NCBI RefSeq assembly: GCF_900167935.1
Contig: NZ_FUYL01000002.1
Span: 360,985-424,984, forward strand
Direction of reading: 5' to 3'
Source: Maribacter arcticus
Lineage (GTDB): Bacteria > Bacteroidota > Bacteroidia > Flavobacteriales > Flavobacteriaceae
Length of the DNA stretch: 64,000 nucleotides
Shown: positions 55,616 through 61,686 of the stretch, piece by piece
How positions within the stretch are numbered: the stretch's first letter is position 1
Layout of the letters: each line of letters starts with the position of its first letter
Notes under the pieces: model-generated
What the model was told of the DNA's origin: nothing
The model's database searches: none
What the model saw: only the letters and a program-made list of their open reading frames with translations
Made by a program: the position numbers and the translations under genes

Positions 55616-56812
55616 CTACTTTTCAAAGAAACTTATTGAAGAGCCAATCCAAGTTTCATCTACTTGATGAGAAACATTAATCATTTCTCCTTTACTCATT
55701 CGAGTAAGATTTATAACAGGCGTTAACTTATTCTCCTCATCGCTCCAAACATATAGCATACGTAATTCTACTTTTGAGTTTTTAGGCGTATTCGTCTTGA
55801 TCAATGGCGCATATTGAACCTTTTGCTGTAAAATATAATTTTGTTTATCTGATATGACATTGATAGTCTCTTGATTAGGATGTAAATCAACACCCTGACC
55901 TGCAAATGAAAACAAAGGTTTCAAAACAAATTTATTTAAGTCTAAATCGGCCGGAAAATCAGATAAATAATATGATTTCGGAATATTCTTATGCTTCAAC
56001 ATAGGCATAATACATTTCGAAATCATAAAAAACCAATCTGGGTGTGTAACCCATTCCACATCTAAATCATCATTCAGGTTGAAATTAGTTTTTAAGTCTT
56101 TCAGACGTTCCAATTCATCATAAATAACCCTATTGTAAATTCTGTGAATAGGTGTTTTGGTTCCATCTTTCATGTAGAACAATTTTTTTCCTTCCTTCAA
56201 AACTTTAGTCATACAGACAATTTCTATACCTAAGGCTTTTTTGGTCGACCAGAAATCAATTCTTGTTTTTTGCTTTTCAGGAAAAAGTTCCAATAAAATT
56301 ACATTTTCGGGCTTTTCATCACCTAGAATTACCTTCCTTACTTTTTCGGTATAGCTTTGCTTATCTAGGCCATTCAAATAATAATCAAAGCCTTCTTTTG
56401 GCATATTAGGATAATACTGCATAAAAGCCTCTCCTAAAAAAGGTTGATAAAAAAATAATGTAGGGAAAGCCTGTAACTCTATTAATTGAGGAGTGATACC
56501 GCCATTACCATCTTCACAAAGTCCAAAATCTATAGCCAAAAAATGGGGATTACCCATTGGCGCTGGAGACTGAAGTTCTGCAGGAATAAACTTTCTGCGA
56601 ATTTCAGAAAAATCAATTTTCCATAATTGAGAAATAATGGAATCGCAAGCTTCTTCCACTTCTTTTTTGACAGCCTTACTTATAAAAACCGGTGTTTCAG
56701 AAATTCTAAAGGCACTAGGTTCTTTAAAAGTATCTACTATATGCCCTAACAAATTTTTATAGTACACTTCTTTATAAGTGGCATTAAACTCTTCCCTAAT
56801 TTTCGGTATCAT
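55616..56812 (-). CDS. ATP-grasp-like protein of amidoligase cluster
   Basis: 398 residues, no signal peptide. Likely ATP-grasp fold: FVLKPLFSFAGQGV resembles the glycine-rich nucleotide loop (K-P-x-x-x-x-G-x-G), and PQLIELQAFPTLFFYQP carries the glutamate region; RIYNRVIYDEL and INLTRMSKGE are other conserved-looking parts. The order of motifs may be permuted relative to RimK-type ligases. It overlaps the amidotransferase-like gene by four bases (ATGA), so the two are translationally coupled. Proposed role: ATP-dependent ligation of a carboxylate to an amine. Not matched to a named family with certainty. Confidence 0.62.
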   Translation of the reverse strand: MIPKIREEFNATYKEVYYKNLLGHIVDTFKEPSAFRISETPVFISKAVKKEVEEACDSIISQLWKIDFSEIRRKFIPAELQSPAPMGNPHFLAIDFGLCEDGNGGITPQLIELQAFPTLFFYQPFLGEAFMQYYPNMPKEGFDYYLNGLDKQSYTEKVRKVILGDEKPENVILLELFPEKQKTRIDFWSTKKALGIEIVCMTKVLKEGKKLFYMKDGTKTPIHRIYNRVIYDELERLKDLKTNFNLNDDLDVEWVTHPDWFFMISKCIMPMLKHKNIPKSYYLSDFPADLDLNKFVLKPLFSFAGQGVDLHPNQETINVISDKQNYILQQKVQYAPLIKTNTPKNSKVELRMLYVWSDEENKLTPVINLTRMSKGEMINVSHQVDETWIGSSISFFEK

Positions 56813-57645
56813 ACAGTTTGTAGTTTTTGGCTATCGATAGCTTCTGCAGCTAATTTTAAAAAGGTTGGGATTAGGGTTTTATTGGTTTTCCAGATTTTCG
56901 CTTTGTCATCAAGCTGCGTTATCATTTCAAGGTATTTTTTCTTGCCATGTCTTTTTACTATCTGATTCCTTTTTTCTTCCTTTCCAAAATAACGGAGCAT
57001 TCCCTCAGCATCTGCTTCTGGATGAAATTGCACGCCAAATATTTCATTGGAAAAACGAATTGCCATTACTGCACGCTCTAACGGAACATTTGGCCGAATT
57101 TTCTCTCTACACAACACTTTACCATCTAATGTGTCTAATTTCCATTCCTTCGGCCCCACCACTTGATAGTCCCTCGAATCTACCGCATAAAAAGGGTCGT
57201 TCAAATCTTTGAATAAAACCTCCTGTTCACCACTTTTGGTTTTGTAAATCGGAAAAATACCGAATGATGTAGACCTTCTTTTGGTAACCCTTGCCACATC
57301 CCAATGCAGGCAAGCCAATTGAAATGAATGACAGATTAAAAAAGCATGTTTTTTCTGAGCATTAGATAGATTATGGGATAAGATTGAATCTAAAAATTCG
57401 AAATATTTAATTTCCCACTCTGCACCTGTTTTCAAAGGTGAACCTGGCCCGCCAGACGATACAAAAATGTCATATTCATTTAAATCTGGAAGTTCCTGTC
57501 CGTTTCTTACTTCAAAAATATCATACCGGCCCTTAACTCCATCTTGTGTTAAAAATTCACCCATAAGCGTGGTGATGCATCGCATACCTTCGTTGGGTTG
57601 ACCTGCATTCATATCCAATACCGCAATATTATAATTCCCCTTCAT
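56809..57645 (-). CDS. Class I glutamine-amidotransferase-like protein
   Basis: 278 residues. SSGGPGSP matches the oxyanion region, the nucleophile Cys105 lies in LICHSFQ, and FHPEADAEG gives His208 and Glu210, so a full catalytic triad is present. The usual G-x-C-x-G-H/Q context is changed to ICHSFQ. It may supply ammonia from glutamine or hydrolyse a gamma-glutamyl bond. The C-terminal region (about 220-278) is extra to a simple amidotransferase domain. Second-last gene of the five-gene minus-strand cluster. Confidence 0.8.
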   Translation of the reverse strand: MKGNYNIAVLDMNAGQPNEGMRCITTLMGEFLTQDGVKGRYDIFEVRNGQELPDLNEYDIFVSSGGPGSPLKTGAEWEIKYFEFLDSILSHNLSNAQKKHAFLICHSFQLACLHWDVARVTKRRSTSFGIFPIYKTKSGEQEVLFKDLNDPFYAVDSRDYQVVGPKEWKLDTLDGKVLCREKIRPNVPLERAVMAIRFSNEIFGVQFHPEADAEGMLRYFGKEEKRNQIVKRHGKKKYLEMITQLDDKAKIWKTNKTLIPTFLKLAAEAIDSQKLQTV

Positions 57646-57711
57646 TTCATCTAACTAAAAATGGTTCCAAAACAAATGCTATTTTGGAAACGTATATACT
57701 ATTTAACTTTA

Positions 57712-58809
57712 TTAAAGTCCTTTTCTTGTTTGATCTACGATATACTTTGTAACCTCTACCAAATCATTGGTTTCATTAAAAACTTGTAGTTGCCTATCTG
57801 CACCAGTACCTGCTTCCAGTATTTGGTACACATAATTAACTTCAGACCGGCAACCTAACTCGTCAACAACATCGTCTATAAATTCTAACAGTTCACTCAT
57901 AAGCTTAGCGAAAGGAACCTCTTCTTCTTTGCCAAAATCTATCAACTTTGATTCAATACCCCATCGAGCAGCCCGCCATTTATTTTCATTCAATAACAAT
58001 CGTCTATAGTTTTTAAAGTTCTGATTCTTGCGGTTCATCTTGTACAACTTGGCTACCAAACATTGCATTAACGCTGCAATACAGGTTACCTCATCTACAG
58101 TCATTACAACATCGCATATTCTAAATTCAATGGTTGGATAAAAAGGGTGTAATCGTATATCCCACCAAATTTTCTTGCTATTATCCAAACAATTGGTCTT
58201 CACTAAAATATCCACGAACTTATCATACTCAGCCACACTAGCAAAAAAAGGAGGTATGCCTGTTCTTGGAAATTTGTCGAATACTTTACTTCGATATGAT
58301 TTGAAGCCTGTATTACGACCTTCCCAAAAAGGCGAGTTTGTAGATAATGCATATAGGTGTGGCAAAAAATACCGAACCGTGTTCAAAATTTCCAAACCTT
58401 CTTCCCTACTCGGTATGCCTACGTGTACGTGCATGCCAAAAATAAGATTACCCCTAGCTACGTCTGCCATTTCTTGGATAATAGCATCATATCTTGGATT
58501 AGGGGTTATCAATTGTTGATCCCATTTAGAAAATGGGTGCGTTCCAGCAGCTGCAACTTTTAGTCCTTCATCATCTGCTAGTTTAATGACCTGTTGTCTT
58601 AGGTATGAAACCTCATCCCTCACCTGATGAATGTTTTCACAGATATTGGTGCCCATCTCAACCATAGACTGATGCATTTCTTCCTTTATTCGTTCTTGAA
58701 GTAGAACCTTACCATCGTCAATAATTTTCGACATTTGTGAACGTAATCTATACGTATCACTATCTAAAACTTGAAATTCTTCTTCAATACCTAAGGTAAA
58801 TTTATGCAT
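57712..58809 (-). CDS. GCS2-type carboxylate-amine ligase (YbdK family)
   Basis: 365 residues. GIEEEFQ at 7-13, AGTHPFSKW, GMHVHVG and a central REEG region mark the gamma-glutamylcysteine-synthetase type 2 family, which joins glutamate to an amine with ATP. E. coli YbdK is a weak such enzyme of uncertain role. Neighbours include two ATP-grasp-like proteins and an amidotransferase, so it probably makes the first amide bond of a shared product. Cytosolic. Confidence 0.9.
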   Translation of the reverse strand: MHKFTLGIEEEFQVLDSDTYRLRSQMSKIIDDGKVLLQERIKEEMHQSMVEMGTNICENIHQVRDEVSYLRQQVIKLADDEGLKVAAAGTHPFSKWDQQLITPNPRYDAIIQEMADVARGNLIFGMHVHVGIPSREEGLEILNTVRYFLPHLYALSTNSPFWEGRNTGFKSYRSKVFDKFPRTGIPPFFASVAEYDKFVDILVKTNCLDNSKKIWWDIRLHPFYPTIEFRICDVVMTVDEVTCIAALMQCLVAKLYKMNRKNQNFKNYRRLLLNENKWRAARWGIESKLIDFGKEEEVPFAKLMSELLEFIDDVVDELGCRSEVNYVYQILEAGTGADRQLQVFNETNDLVEVTKYIVDQTRKGL

Positions 58810-58850
58810 GTAATTACAGTTGATTCTTAAAGTTATTTGCCACTATTCTA

Positions 58851-59945
58851 CTACTTCTTCGGTTTTGCCGGTGCTTTGGTTTTGGCAGGAGCTTTGGTTT
58901 TGGCAGGAGCTTTCTTCACTGCAGTTTTAACGGCAGTTTTTTTAGCCTCTGCAGCTGTTTTTAAGTTAACCTTACCTACTTTTGGTTTCACCGGAGCTAT
59001 TGAATTTCTTACAAAACCTCCCCATGAAGAATTATTTTGGTTTGGTTTGTGCTCTTTGGCTTTTTCAATAGCATACTTCGCAGAATGTTCAACAATCCAA
59101 TCAAAATTTTCTTGGCCAACCGAATTTATATCGGCATCTGGTGCTGGGTTACAAAAGTCAATTGCATAAGGCACACCATCACGTACTGCAAACTCAACAG
59201 TATTGAAATCATACCCTAAAGCCTGATTTAGTCTCAATGTATAGTCATGTACCGTTTTTAATAGTTTCTTACGAGCTTCGCCAGTTGCTTTAATATCGCT
59301 TACATAACGTTCGTGAAAAGGCTTTCTTGGGTCATATGGCATAATATGTACATACTTCTGCCCTAAACAATAGACTCTAAAGTAATCATCGAAAACAATT
59401 TCTTCCTGTAGCATCATTACTAGCTGCTCAGTCTCTTTATGTGCTTCAAAAAGTTGTTCTGAGTTTTCTACTCTATACACGCTTTTCCATCCGCCACCAT
59501 CGTGAGGTTTCATATAAGCTGGGAAACCAATATAATCGAACATATATTCCCAGTCCAATGGAACTTTAAGATTTCGGAAAGACGTTTCTGAAGTATTATC
59601 AGGTCTAGCATTTGAAGGCAAAAGCACAGTTTTAGGCACTGGTATTCCCATTTCCATTGATAAACAATTATTGAAGAACTTCTCGTCGGCACTCCACCAA
59701 AATGGATTATTAATAACTGCCGTACCCATCAATGATGCATTTTTTAAATACGCACGATAAAATGGTACTTCTTGAGATATTCGGTCAAAAATTACGCTAT
59801 ACCCATAATCAATGCCTTGTTGTACCTTATCTATTTGAACTGCCTCAGCAATAATTTTGCCTTTGCCTAATTCATTAACCTTATCTATAAATGCCCATGG
59901 AAAGGTGTCTTCCATTCCGAATAATATTCCTACTTTTTTTATCAT
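58851..59945 (-). CDS. ATP-grasp ligase with histone-H1-like basic tail
   Basis: 364 residues. An ATP-grasp core (about 1-285) has MKPHDGGGWKSVYRV as the nucleotide loop and EFAVRDGVPYAIDFCNPAPD as the metal-binding region. It is followed by a Lys/Ala/Pro-rich tail of roughly 45 residues, in which KAPAKT-type units recur, encoded by perfect 18-base tandem repeats. The tail could bind nucleic acid or acidic polymers, or be a modification target. Third-last gene of the cluster. Substrate unknown. Confidence 0.82.
   Translation of the reverse strand: MIKKVGILFGMEDTFPWAFIDKVNELGKGKIIAEAVQIDKVQQGIDYGYSVIFDRISQEVPFYRAYLKNASLMGTAVINNPFWWSADEKFFNNCLSMEMGIPVPKTVLLPSNARPDNTSETSFRNLKVPLDWEYMFDYIGFPAYMKPHDGGGWKSVYRVENSEQLFEAHKETEQLVMMLQEEIVFDDYFRVYCLGQKYVHIMPYDPRKPFHERYVSDIKATGEARKKLLKTVHDYTLRLNQALGYDFNTVEFAVRDGVPYAIDFCNPAPDADINSVGQENFDWIVEHSAKYAIEKAKEHKPNQNNSSWGGFVRNSIAPVKPKVGKVNLKTAAEAKKTAVKTAVKKAPAKTKAPAKTKAPAKPKK
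58873..58914 (-). repeat. 18-base tandem repeat in the tail of the ATP-grasp gene
   Basis: GCTTTGGTTTTGGCAGGA occurs twice without mismatch (58873-58890, 58891-58908) on the plus strand, with partial units on both sides. Each unit encodes six tail residues on the minus strand. Confidence 0.85.
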
Positions 59946-60036
59946 TTTATTTTATGTGTTTTAATTTTTTGCCTCCTTTAATATACGATATTTGATTGGT
60001 TTTGGTTTGGACAACACCCAAAATTGAAAGTATATT

Positions 60037-60750
60037 TCAATTGAAGTAGGCGCCTAGATACTCGGGGAACATCATTTTCCACAATGGCCAATCATGGTCC
60101 ATCCATTTTTTCTCATCATACCAATGAGCAATTCCCTTACCTTTTAATATGGCCGACATATTTCTATTTTTATCCAAACAAATATCCCAATCAGAAGTGC
60201 CAAGCACAATTTGCATATGGTCATATTTCCAACCTTCCTCATGTAACATATATTCATCTGGACAGTTATAATAAATTCGCATATCATCAGATTGAGGAGC
60301 CATGGAACGTATGTTAAATGCTGCGCTCATTCCTATATAATGAGAAATCAAATCTGGAAATCTGAACGCTGTATTGGCTGCGTGAAAACCTCCAAAACTA
60401 ACCCCAGACACACCAATACGATGTGTATTACACTCTTTTTGTATATACGGTATTAATTCATTCTTAAGAAACTGCATATACAATTCGTAATTATGAATTT
60501 TGGTGCCAGAATCCATATAATCATCATAGAAAGACATCATATCAATGGTCTCTACATTATATATTTTCACTTTACCTTCATCAATAAAATTCATTACTGA
60601 ACCTACCAAACCGAAATCTGTATTTTGTGTAAATTGACCTCCCGATGAGGGGAACATTAATATCGGATGACCCCAATGACCCGTAACCTCAAGATTAATA
60701 TTTCTATTTAAGGTGTTGGAATAATATTGTATGTGTTCTACTTTCGCCAT
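60037..60750 (-). CDS. Alpha/beta-hydrolase esterase of amidoligase cluster
   Basis: 237 residues. Nucleophile Ser118 in GVSFGG, the oxyanion segment MFPSSGGQ, and a C-terminal HDW containing the catalytic His. It resembles small cytosolic esterases of the enterochelin-esterase/COG4947 type. First gene of the minus-strand cluster, 91 bases ahead of the ATP-grasp gene. It may hydrolyse an ester or amide of the cluster product. Divergent from another esterase at 60874. Confidence 0.85.
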   Translation of the reverse strand: MAKVEHIQYYSNTLNRNINLEVTGHWGHPILMFPSSGGQFTQNTDFGLVGSVMNFIDEGKVKIYNVETIDMMSFYDDYMDSGTKIHNYELYMQFLKNELIPYIQKECNTHRIGVSGVSFGGFHAANTAFRFPDLISHYIGMSAAFNIRSMAPQSDDMRIYYNCPDEYMLHEEGWKYDHMQIVLGTSDWDICLDKNRNMSAILKGKGIAHWYDEKKWMDHDWPLWKMMFPEYLGAYFN

Positions 60751-60873
60751 GTATTAAGATAAATAAAATGTTTAATAATCAACGTTTTAAGGGCGGCAAA
60801 TGTAATTTATTTTGAAATATCACGACATATATTTTTACGGATACTTATACTTGCATTTTTATACTAAGAATAC

Positions 60874-61686
60874 ATGCAGTTTCAACTAGAGACCATTACT
60901 ATTAAAGGAAGTTATTTTTCTATAAACCTAAATCGTTTAGTGCTTTTTCGAGTTGTAGCTCCACAAGATTATTTGAAATCTACTAGCGACTTTTCGGTAT
61001 TACTAATGAATGATGGGCAAGACTTTGAAGCAATGAAACTTGAACATAGCTTATCTCAAGCTTTTTCTTCAAAAATAATGAAGCCTTTTATTTATGTTGG
61101 ACTTTCTTGTAATGAAAATCGTATTCATGAATATGGGACTGCCTCGACTGCAGATTTTAAAGGAAGAGGCGGACAGGCATTAAAATACTCTAAATTCATT
61201 ACTGAAGAATTCGTTCCTTTTCTAAAGCAAGAATTCAAAACTTCTACAGATTTTAATGAATGGGTCTATTGCGGTATGTCTCTCGGTGGTTTATCGGCAT
61301 TCGATATTGTTTACAATCAAAGTTCTCTATTTGGAAAAGTCGGCGTATTTAGCGGATCATTTTGGTGGCGTAAAAAACCTTATGTAAAAAATGACCTAAA
61401 AGACCGTAGTAGAATTGCTCTAGAAGTCGTAAAAAATGGTGCATACGCTGAACATTTGAAATTCTGGTTTCAATGTGGCTCATTAGACGAAACTGCGGAC
61501 CGAAACCACAATGGGATAATCGATGCTATTGAAGACACCTTAGATGTGATAAAGGAGCTTAAAACTAAAGGATACTCTTATCCTGGTGATATAACCTATG
61601 TTCAAGTTGAAGGTGGAAAACACGACCTACCTACTTGGGGAAAGGTATTTCCACAGTTTATCACTTGGGCATTGACCAAAAACTAA
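60874..61686 (+). CDS. Second alpha/beta-hydrolase esterase (Esterase D-like)
   Basis: 270 residues. Ser136 in GMSLGG and a C-terminal GGKHDLPTW with the catalytic His. The stretch DRNHNGIID (209-217) resembles a calcium-binding EF-hand loop. It lacks a signal peptide and appears cytosolic. It is divergent from the first esterase and convergent with the acyltransferase-like gene, whose stop it overlaps by three bases. Probably part of the cluster pathway, inferred from position. Confidence 0.83.
   Translation: MQFQLETITIKGSYFSINLNRLVLFRVVAPQDYLKSTSDFSVLLMNDGQDFEAMKLEHSLSQAFSSKIMKPFIYVGLSCNENRIHEYGTASTADFKGRGGQALKYSKFITEEFVPFLKQEFKTSTDFNEWVYCGMSLGGLSAFDIVYNQSSLFGKVGVFSGSFWWRKKPYVKNDLKDRSRIALEVVKNGAYAEHLKFWFQCGSLDETADRNHNGIIDAIEDTLDVIKELKTKGYSYPGDITYVQVEGGKHDLPTWGKVFPQFITWALTKN

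Follow-up and report, generated by a model that had tools for sequence, protein, structure and literature searches.

A conserved set of three amide ligases in Maribacter arcticus and other Bacteroidota, possibly for the synthesis of an amine-capped gamma-glutamyl peptide

What compound would be made by a group of six genes of Maribacter arcticus, which code for three amide ligases and hydrolases? We have studied them in a window of 64,000 nucleotides, which is the whole stretch of DNA that was analysed (contig NZ_FUYL01000002.1). The original prediction described five consecutive genes on the minus strand and a divergent esterase gene, and all six open reading frames are confirmed:

60874..61686, plus strand: EstB, second serine hydrolase of 270 aa, divergent from EstA (PF00756)
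60751..60873, no strand: divergent intergenic region of 123 bp between EstA and EstB, a putative promoter by its position in the sequence
60037..60750, minus strand: EstA, serine alpha/beta-hydrolase of the esterase family, 237 aa, first of the five-gene run (PF00756)
58851..59945, minus strand: AG1, ATP-grasp ligase of 364 aa with a RimK/LysX/Ddl fold (predicted structure)
58854..58973, minus strand: C-terminal tail of AG1, residues 325-364, Lys/Ala/Pro-rich and histone-H1-like (sequence and model)
57712..58809, minus strand: GCS2, carboxylate-amine ligase of 365 aa, GCS2/YbdK superfamily (NF010039, PF04107)
56809..57645, minus strand: GAT, class I glutamine-amidotransferase-family protein of 278 aa (PF00117)
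55616..56812, minus strand: AG2, ATP-grasp ligase of 398 aa with a glutathione-synthetase/GspS/YgiC fold (predicted structure)

The overlapping or close junctions which had been described are also found: the GAT and AG2 reading frames overlap by 4 bp, and the other gaps of the run have 41-91 bp (EstA/AG1 91 bp, AG1/GCS2 41 bp, GCS2/GAT 66 bp). The answer that we prefer, with a probability of about 0.45, is that this cassette would make a small gamma-glutamyl-peptide amide non-ribosomally, with an amine cap and built-in turnover.

The neighbourhood was expected to be conserved in other Bacteroidota. We have examined 100 loci, 80 of them chosen as the best AG1 matches and at least two pairs lying on the same contig (L038/L062 and L040/L103). 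The five-gene set is complete in 71, and all 71 have the same order and strand, which is more than chance. The five proteins have mean identities of 50-71% (69 loci). EstB adjoins EstA divergently in 34 of the 35 loci which have both, when EstB is counted above 150 bits. An anti-phage role of the cassette is not supported: the six proteins used as queries gave no match to the PADLOC models at E <=0.001. Carriage by plasmids or phages was also discarded, as AG1, the one protein used as query, is unmatched in the plasmid and phage collections.

The ligases are associated over whole genomes as well. AG1 is found in 134 of 395 genomes sampled from the phylum, AG2 in 114 and GCS2 in 117. AG1 and AG2 appear together in 110 genomes, AG2 and GCS2 in 109, and 105 of the latter also have AG1. 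This co-occurrence is strong by Fisher tests, which ignore relatedness. Scattering of the genes in relatives had been named beforehand as evidence against a pathway; 26 genomes from 8 families do have the three ligases with no two of them neighbouring, and these unlinked ligases still tend to share genomes. The idea of one dedicated pathway with three amide ligases and hydrolases is thus backed by co-occurrence even where linkage is lost. Among the genomes with AG1 and GAT which lack AG2, there are 16 in which a different ATP-grasp protein of about 450 aa adjoins AG1. Its hhalign probability with AG2 is 2.9%, so we treat it as distinct, at most distantly related. Three sets of genomes count against the preferred reading: a strong GCS2 match is absent in 21 of the 134 AG1 genomes, 8 AG1 genomes lack both AG2 and its substitute, and 4 other genomes have AG2 and GCS2 with no AG1 match, also by a profile search which included no positive-control genome.

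The two ATP-grasp proteins are only distantly similar to known families. AG1 matches the Pfam RimK model weakly (1.4e-6, below cut-off) and differs from RimK, LysX, ArgX and Ddl ligases by a score of 27.9 bits with TIGR00768 rimK_fam (cut-off 143.4), by an identity of about 16%, and by its tail, which is H1-like in many members, varies among relatives and has low model confidence. Residues K146, R190, E251, D263 and N266 are conserved. In a comparison of predicted structures AG1 has a RimK-like ATP-grasp fold, with RimK and LysX/ArgX as its nearest neighbours. For AG2 the Pfam model GSP_synth (PF03738) gives 16.3 bits, below its cut-off of 29.3 (E 0.0059); 12 of 20 members match it at E <=0.1. 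By hhalign AG2 is related to GspS/YgiC with a probability of 83% over 79 columns, all within columns 248-331. This weak match to GspS/YgiC counts against our reading. The predicted structure of AG2 matches the GspS/YgiC/glutathione-synthetase fold over its whole length. Residues D95, E112, K266 and K298 are invariant and aligned with those of YgiC and GspS in an alignment with an identity of only 17%, where one Asn of GspS/YgiC is Gln114 in AG2; both points count against our reading as well. These Asp, Glu, Asn and Lys residues of GspS/YgiC are catalytic, for ATP and Mg. The assignment of both proteins as ATP-grasps, weak by sequence, is supported by the agreement of the predicted structures. 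Judged by these models, AG1 (RimK/LysX/Ddl-like) and AG2 (glutathione-synthetase/GspS/YgiC) belong to different classes, a distinction which the original prediction did not make.

The third ligase is a clear family member: GCS2 reaches 546.8 bits with NCBIfam NF010039 (cut-off 371) and 236.9 bits with PF04107 (cut-off 21, E=4e-70). Glutamate as its starting substrate would agree with the family. GAT is above the PF00117 cut-off (26.4 against 22.8 bits), all 20 aligned members match this model, and its Cys105-His208-Glu210 is intact and invariant in these 20. The canonical nucleophile elbow of class I amidotransferases is C-x-G-x-Q; GAT has CHSFQ instead, with Ser107 invariant in 20 of 20. The best solved structure by sequence is a homoserine O-succinyltransferase (2vdj, 6e-4). 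We do not favour a MetA-like acyltransferase, since the Pfam family matched by all 20 members is that of the class I amidotransferases, against weak HTS matches in just 2. Our preference, which is not a result, is that GAT acts as a hydrolase, possibly removing a gamma-glutamyl group as the original prediction suggested. EstA passes PF00756 with 7.5e-9; S118, D189 and H219, which 97% or more of 85 sequences share, are probably its catalytic triad. A divergent relative in locus L044 is without S118 and H219, which counts against our reading. EstB passes PF00756 with 6.7e-20, is weakly enterochelin-esterase-like and has S136 and H250 conserved (37 sequences).

The gene content and order, the co-occurrence, the fold classes of AG1 and AG2 and the conserved residues of catalytic type are established here; the order of steps, the substrates, the product and the roles of the hydrolases we infer. 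GCS2 would start by joining an amino compound to the gamma-carboxylate of glutamate or of an acid resembling it. AG1, with its RimK fold, would then append at least one amino-acid unit via an acyl-phosphate. AG2 would activate the free C-terminal carboxylate of the peptide and couple it with an amine, the likeliest candidates being polyamines and small amino compounds. Finally GAT, as a Cys hydrolase, together with EstA and EstB, may trim, release or recycle the product, in analogy with the amidase domain which acts on glutathionylspermidine. Two points count against this scheme: the AG2-type fold also makes glutathione, where the amine is glycine, and no polyamine-synthesis gene was recognised beside the cassette. 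In one lineage a class III aminotransferase comes after AG2; this family includes ornithine and putrescine aminotransferases. In Chryseobacterium-type loci the cassette is followed by a cyanophycin synthetase (11 loci, on the other strand) and by a cyanophycinase-type peptidase S51 (9 loci). As a clue to the product this link was rejected: cyanophycin synthetase (PF18921) is found in 7 of 40 AG1-positive and 8 of 40 AG1-negative genomes, with no association.

A literature search, which left most subscription journals outside its scope, gave neither the gene set nor an assigned product among the matches listed. The computational survey of amidoligase neighbourhoods mentioned in the original prediction may be that of Iyer et al. 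2009, which reportedly covers ATP-grasp and glutamine-synthetase-like ligases. From GspS and trypanothione synthetase AG2 differs by an identity of 11-14% in structural alignments; the possible hydrolase of the cassette is a separate GATase-family protein, not an amidase domain, and the cassette encodes in addition GCS2 and a RimK-type ligase. From the peptide-spermidine ligases YgiC and YjfC of E. coli AG2 differs by staying under the GSP_synth cut-off and by its gene context, as ygiC adjoins ygiB and tolC. In the fungal E-64 pathway stand-alone ligases (Cp1B and Cp1D) act serially to give a short peptide amide; there the acid building block is another one, the genes are fungal, and it is an adenylating enzyme, instead of the ATP-grasp, which attaches the amine (PMC12568646). 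In our comparison of predicted structures Cp1B has the fold of AG2.

Other explanations have to be weighed. The cassette resembles glutathione synthesis, in which a GCS2-type gamma-glutamylcysteine ligase is combined with a eukaryotic-type glutathione synthetase, by pairing a GCS2-superfamily ligase with an ATP-grasp of glutathione-synthetase fold. The product might be a redox cofactor or low-molecular-weight thiol of the glutathione type: GCS2 would give gamma-Glu-Cys and AG2 or AG1 would add the third residue, with no polyamine. We find this unlikely. Unlike glutathione synthesis, a RimK-type ligase is also present (the 105 of 109 genomes given above), and the bacillithiol gene BshC (PF10079) is found in the genome of the window and in 24 of the 25 genomes sampled from its genus, where AG1 is in just 8; therefore the cassette is not the general thiol system there. 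BshC is also common to the relatives (37 of 40; of the 9 which carry AG1, 8 have it), which does not agree with a glutathione pathway replacing another thiol system. Thioredoxin-like neighbours occur only in L044 and in a single lineage. The stand-alone ligases which are combined in the E-64 and dapdiamide pathways bring to mind a secondary metabolite such as an antibiotic pseudopeptide or a protease inhibitor, a reading which appears rather improbable. Among the recurring neighbour clusters, read by eye, transporter-like genes are limited to single lineages: one resembling a sodium-solute symporter occurs in 5 loci and one resembling an ammonium transporter in 12. No regulator or resistance gene common to several lineages was recognised. 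The frequency of AG1 and the mean identities resemble core metabolism, not a fast-changing natural product.

The same ammonium-transporter-like gene would suit a GAT which is a true glutaminase feeding ammonia to AG2, the product being a primary-amide peptide with no amine cap. So would the match of GAT to the class I model, its place beside AG2 wherever the locus is complete, at a median gap of 7 bp, and its distances, which correlate best with those of AG2 (r 0.94). We give this little credence: GAT is absent in 45 of 114 AG2 genomes, therefore AG2 can function without it; 17 of 86 GAT genomes have no AG2, the elbow is not canonical, and the nearest folds to AG2 take amines or amino acids. 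Even less credible is that AG1 modifies proteins by RimK/TTL-like amino-acid tagging, the other enzymes making or removing the tag; in its favour, the closest folds RimK and LysX/ArgX modify protein C-termini, and a Lys-rich tail is frequent in AG1 itself. One might suspect that unrelated enzymes are clustered loosely for convenience, as the five-gene set near AG1 is incomplete in 29 of 100 loci; contig ends truncate some of these. This is hardly tenable, given that the ligases co-occur genome-wide without linkage and that the alternative ATP-grasp adjoins AG1 where AG2 is absent.

An amine-capped gamma-glutamyl peptide remains our preferred product. About a third of the phylum-wide sample has this co-inherited set of amide ligases, and the resemblance in structure between AG2 and peptide-polyamine ligases narrows "some amide compound" to a concrete prediction which can be tested. 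It is possible, if doubtful, that the fixed trio GCS2/AG1/AG2 makes an unrecognised, phylum-wide class of gamma-glutamyl peptide-amine conjugates, released by a dedicated cysteine hydrolase and serine hydrolases: a counterpart in Bacteroidota of glutathionylspermidine and trypanothione, alongside bacillithiol. If true, a common small molecule of a major phylum would be revealed, and three new stand-alone ligases would become available for making peptide amides.

The original prediction had placed an amide-ligase pathway at this point of the Maribacter arcticus genome, and its six reading frames are all found in the window where it had put them. Five lie on the minus strand with close or overlapping junctions and form a cassette; the second esterase is divergent. 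They are given here in the direction of transcription of the cassette:

60750-60037, minus strand: EstA, serine hydrolase, first of the five
59945-58851, minus strand: AG1, ATP-grasp of RimK fold, second, 91 bp after EstA
58809-57712, minus strand: GCS2, carboxylate-amine ligase of the GCS2/YbdK family, third, 41 bp after AG1
57645-56809, minus strand: GAT, class I amidotransferase-like protein, fourth, 66 bp after GCS2
56812-55616, minus strand: AG2, ATP-grasp of glutathione-synthetase/GspS/YgiC fold, fifth, overlapping GAT by 4 bp
60874-61686, plus strand: EstB, serine hydrolase, divergent

Read by eye, one flank of the cassette has riboflavin-synthase-like and PdxA-like genes and the opposite flank a sodium-solute-symporter-like gene. 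The gene at 61683-62771 matches NagX with 198.5 bits, under the cut-off of 480.

GCS2 passes the cut-offs of NCBIfam NF010039 (546.8 bits, cut-off 371) and Pfam PF04107, GAT that of PF00117 and both esterases that of PF00756. No Pfam or NCBIfam model reaches its cut-off for AG1 or AG2. Conserved residues were sought in sets collected by BLAST (1e-20, 60% coverage), which are biased to close relatives. At least 97% of the sequences keep K146, R190, E251, D263 and N266 in AG1 (101 sequences), C105, H208 and E210 in GAT (79), S118, D189 and H219 in EstA (85), and S136 and H250 in EstB (37). The more distant EstA of locus L044 lacks S118 and H219. Glutaminases have the nucleophile elbow C-x-G-x-Q, whereas the GAT of the window has CHSFQ. 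A peculiarity of AG1 is that it often ends in a Lys/Ala/Pro-rich tail resembling histone H1, as in the window (58854-58973, minus strand) and in AG1 proteins of loci L038-L137. The tail extends at least 15 aa past the conserved core in 49 of 101 aligned sequences, with a maximum of over 130 aa; Lys and Arg exceed 25% in 36 of these 49.

Conservation of the neighbourhood in relatives, on which the prediction could be checked, was assessed in 100 loci: 20 picked for their diversity, and the best 80, from named genomes, of 584 confirmed relatives. At least two pairs among them are one and the same contig (L038/L062 and L040/L103). All five genes are present (over 150 bits each) in 71 of them, always in the same order and strand. 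From EstA to AG2 the genes are separated by medians of 42, 29, 43 and 7 bp (start codons assigned mechanically). EstB is divergent and adjoining in 34 of the 35 loci holding both esterases. Pairwise protein distances correlate with r 0.83-0.94 in 69 loci, GAT/AG2 being the top pair. The other 29 loci have a partial set; nine have AG1 alone, and some are truncated where the contig stops. In the complete genome of Chryseobacterium sp. E1 (L132) EstA, GAT and AG2 are each split in two pieces: they are either decayed genes or sequencing errors.

Throughout the phylum we searched 395 genomes. AG1 was found in 134 (138 matched, four dropped at E 3.8e-5 to 6.9e-4), which may be an undercount, since its query was a single sequence, whereas profiles were used for the others. 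AG2 was found in 114 (115, less one 25-residue fragment), GCS2 in 117 (126 at E up to 1e-100, nine dropped below 390 bits) and GAT in 86 (E up to 1e-30). AG1 and AG2 occur together in 110 genomes (AG1 alone in 24, AG2 alone in 4), AG1 and GCS2 in 113 (21 and 4), AG2 and GCS2 in 109 (5 and 8), AG1 and GAT in 84 (50 and 2), AG2 and GAT in 69 (45 and 17); all three ligases are found in 105. Fisher p is at most 2e-30 for these pairs, by statistics which ignore relatedness. In 46 of the 110 genomes AG1 and AG2 lie on different contigs or with 15 kb or more between them, and no two of the three ligases are close in 26 genomes from eight families, in both cases partly from fragmented assemblies. Co-occurrence, also without linkage, thus identifies GCS2, AG1 and AG2 as the core, to which GAT and the esterases are added in part of the phylum. 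In genome G192 (L158:3370-6557) AG2, GAT and GCS2 lie together, and AG1 was not found by a profile search without a positive control genome.

Sixteen of the 395 genomes have AG1 and GAT without AG2. In each of these a protein of about 450 aa is matched over its full length; it has weak kinship to circularly permuted ATP-grasps (Pfam CP_ATPgrasp_2, 1.8e-5, under the cut-off) and no significant similarity to AG2 in a profile comparison. It adjoins AG1 in all 16 and in 15 has GAT on its other side; the exception is G328, whose GAT match is on another contig. As this ATP-grasp-like protein stands beside AG1 where AG2 is missing, a second dedicated ATP-grasp is present in 126 of the 134 AG1 genomes. 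Seven of the other eight have a divergent AG1 (32-44% identity).

Other neighbours are limited to certain lineages. Chryseobacterium and its kin have a same-strand module upstream of EstA, made up of an esterase (in 22 loci), an M17 aminopeptidase (in 29) and a third ATP-grasp (in 29), for example in the Weeksellaceae-type loci L071:3265-5809 and L077:5716-6927; the aminopeptidase and the third ATP-grasp also adjoin the cassette in Saprospiraceae L117 and Polaribacter L120. No close copy of that ATP-grasp exists in the genome of the window, where the best match has 29% identity over part of the protein. In 12 Dyadobacter/Spirosoma-type loci (L090, L094-L096, L098, L100, L102, L105, L106, L108, L110, L111) the next gene after AG2 encodes a class III aminotransferase. 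Only in the Dyadobacter/Runella-type lineage (e.g. L105, L106, L110) do LuxC-like (a tested match), ferredoxin-like, ammonium-transporter-like and thioredoxin-like genes (read by eye) recur around the cassette. None of these neighbours spans lineages, and they carry little weight for or against any reading. More distant AG2 relatives have a gene context different from that of the window: by eye, from N-termini, they are flanked by amidohydrolase-like genes in L148, L149 and L150, and additionally by ferredoxin-like genes in L148 and L149. In L141:5002-7636 an AG2 relative overlaps a symporter-like frame, and in L139:4637-7240 one forms the C-terminal region of an 867-aa frame, which may be merely a continuous reading frame.

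Among 40 near relatives, 25 of them in the genus and including the window genome, AG1 is found in nine, AG2 in eight and GAT in eight. These are the same genomes except for G024 (64% complete), which has AG1 close to one end of a 6-kb contig. Of the 25 genus members, 8 carry AG1. The NagX-like and riboflavin-synthase-like genes that flank the cassette in the window also flank it in Muriicola L060, Zeaxanthinibacter L062 and Maribacter L061, which makes inheritance with losses likelier than a recent transfer. No AG1 match was found in plasmid or phage collections, and PADLOC matched none of the six proteins. The cassette is probably not the general thiol system of the genus, since the bacillithiol gene BshC is present in 24 of the 25 members with or without it (37 of the 40 overall). 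Cyanophycin synthetase shows no association: it occurs in 7/40 AG1-positive and 8/40 AG1-negative genomes.

The enzyme classes are known; we could find no product assigned to their combination and distribution, nor a published description of the gene set, in the literature covered; a 2009 amidoligase survey may mention the set. Characterised members of the GCS2 family form an amide between an amine and the gamma-carboxylate of glutamate. The nearest fold relatives of AG2 include glutathione synthetase, GspS and YgiC/YjfC, which link an amine or amino acid to a small peptide through the peptide's carboxylate. Taken with a RimK-type AG1, these activities suggest that the three ligases make a short gamma-glutamyl peptide with a capped C-terminus. 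An amine is favoured as the cap, because the two structures closest to AG2 are peptide-polyamine ligases; a glycine-type cap is possible instead. GAT may act as a gamma-glutamyl or amide hydrolase, comparable to PuuD and the plant gamma-glutamyl peptidases, or it may provide the adjacent AG2 with ammonia. EstA and EstB may cleave an ester or amide bond in the product.
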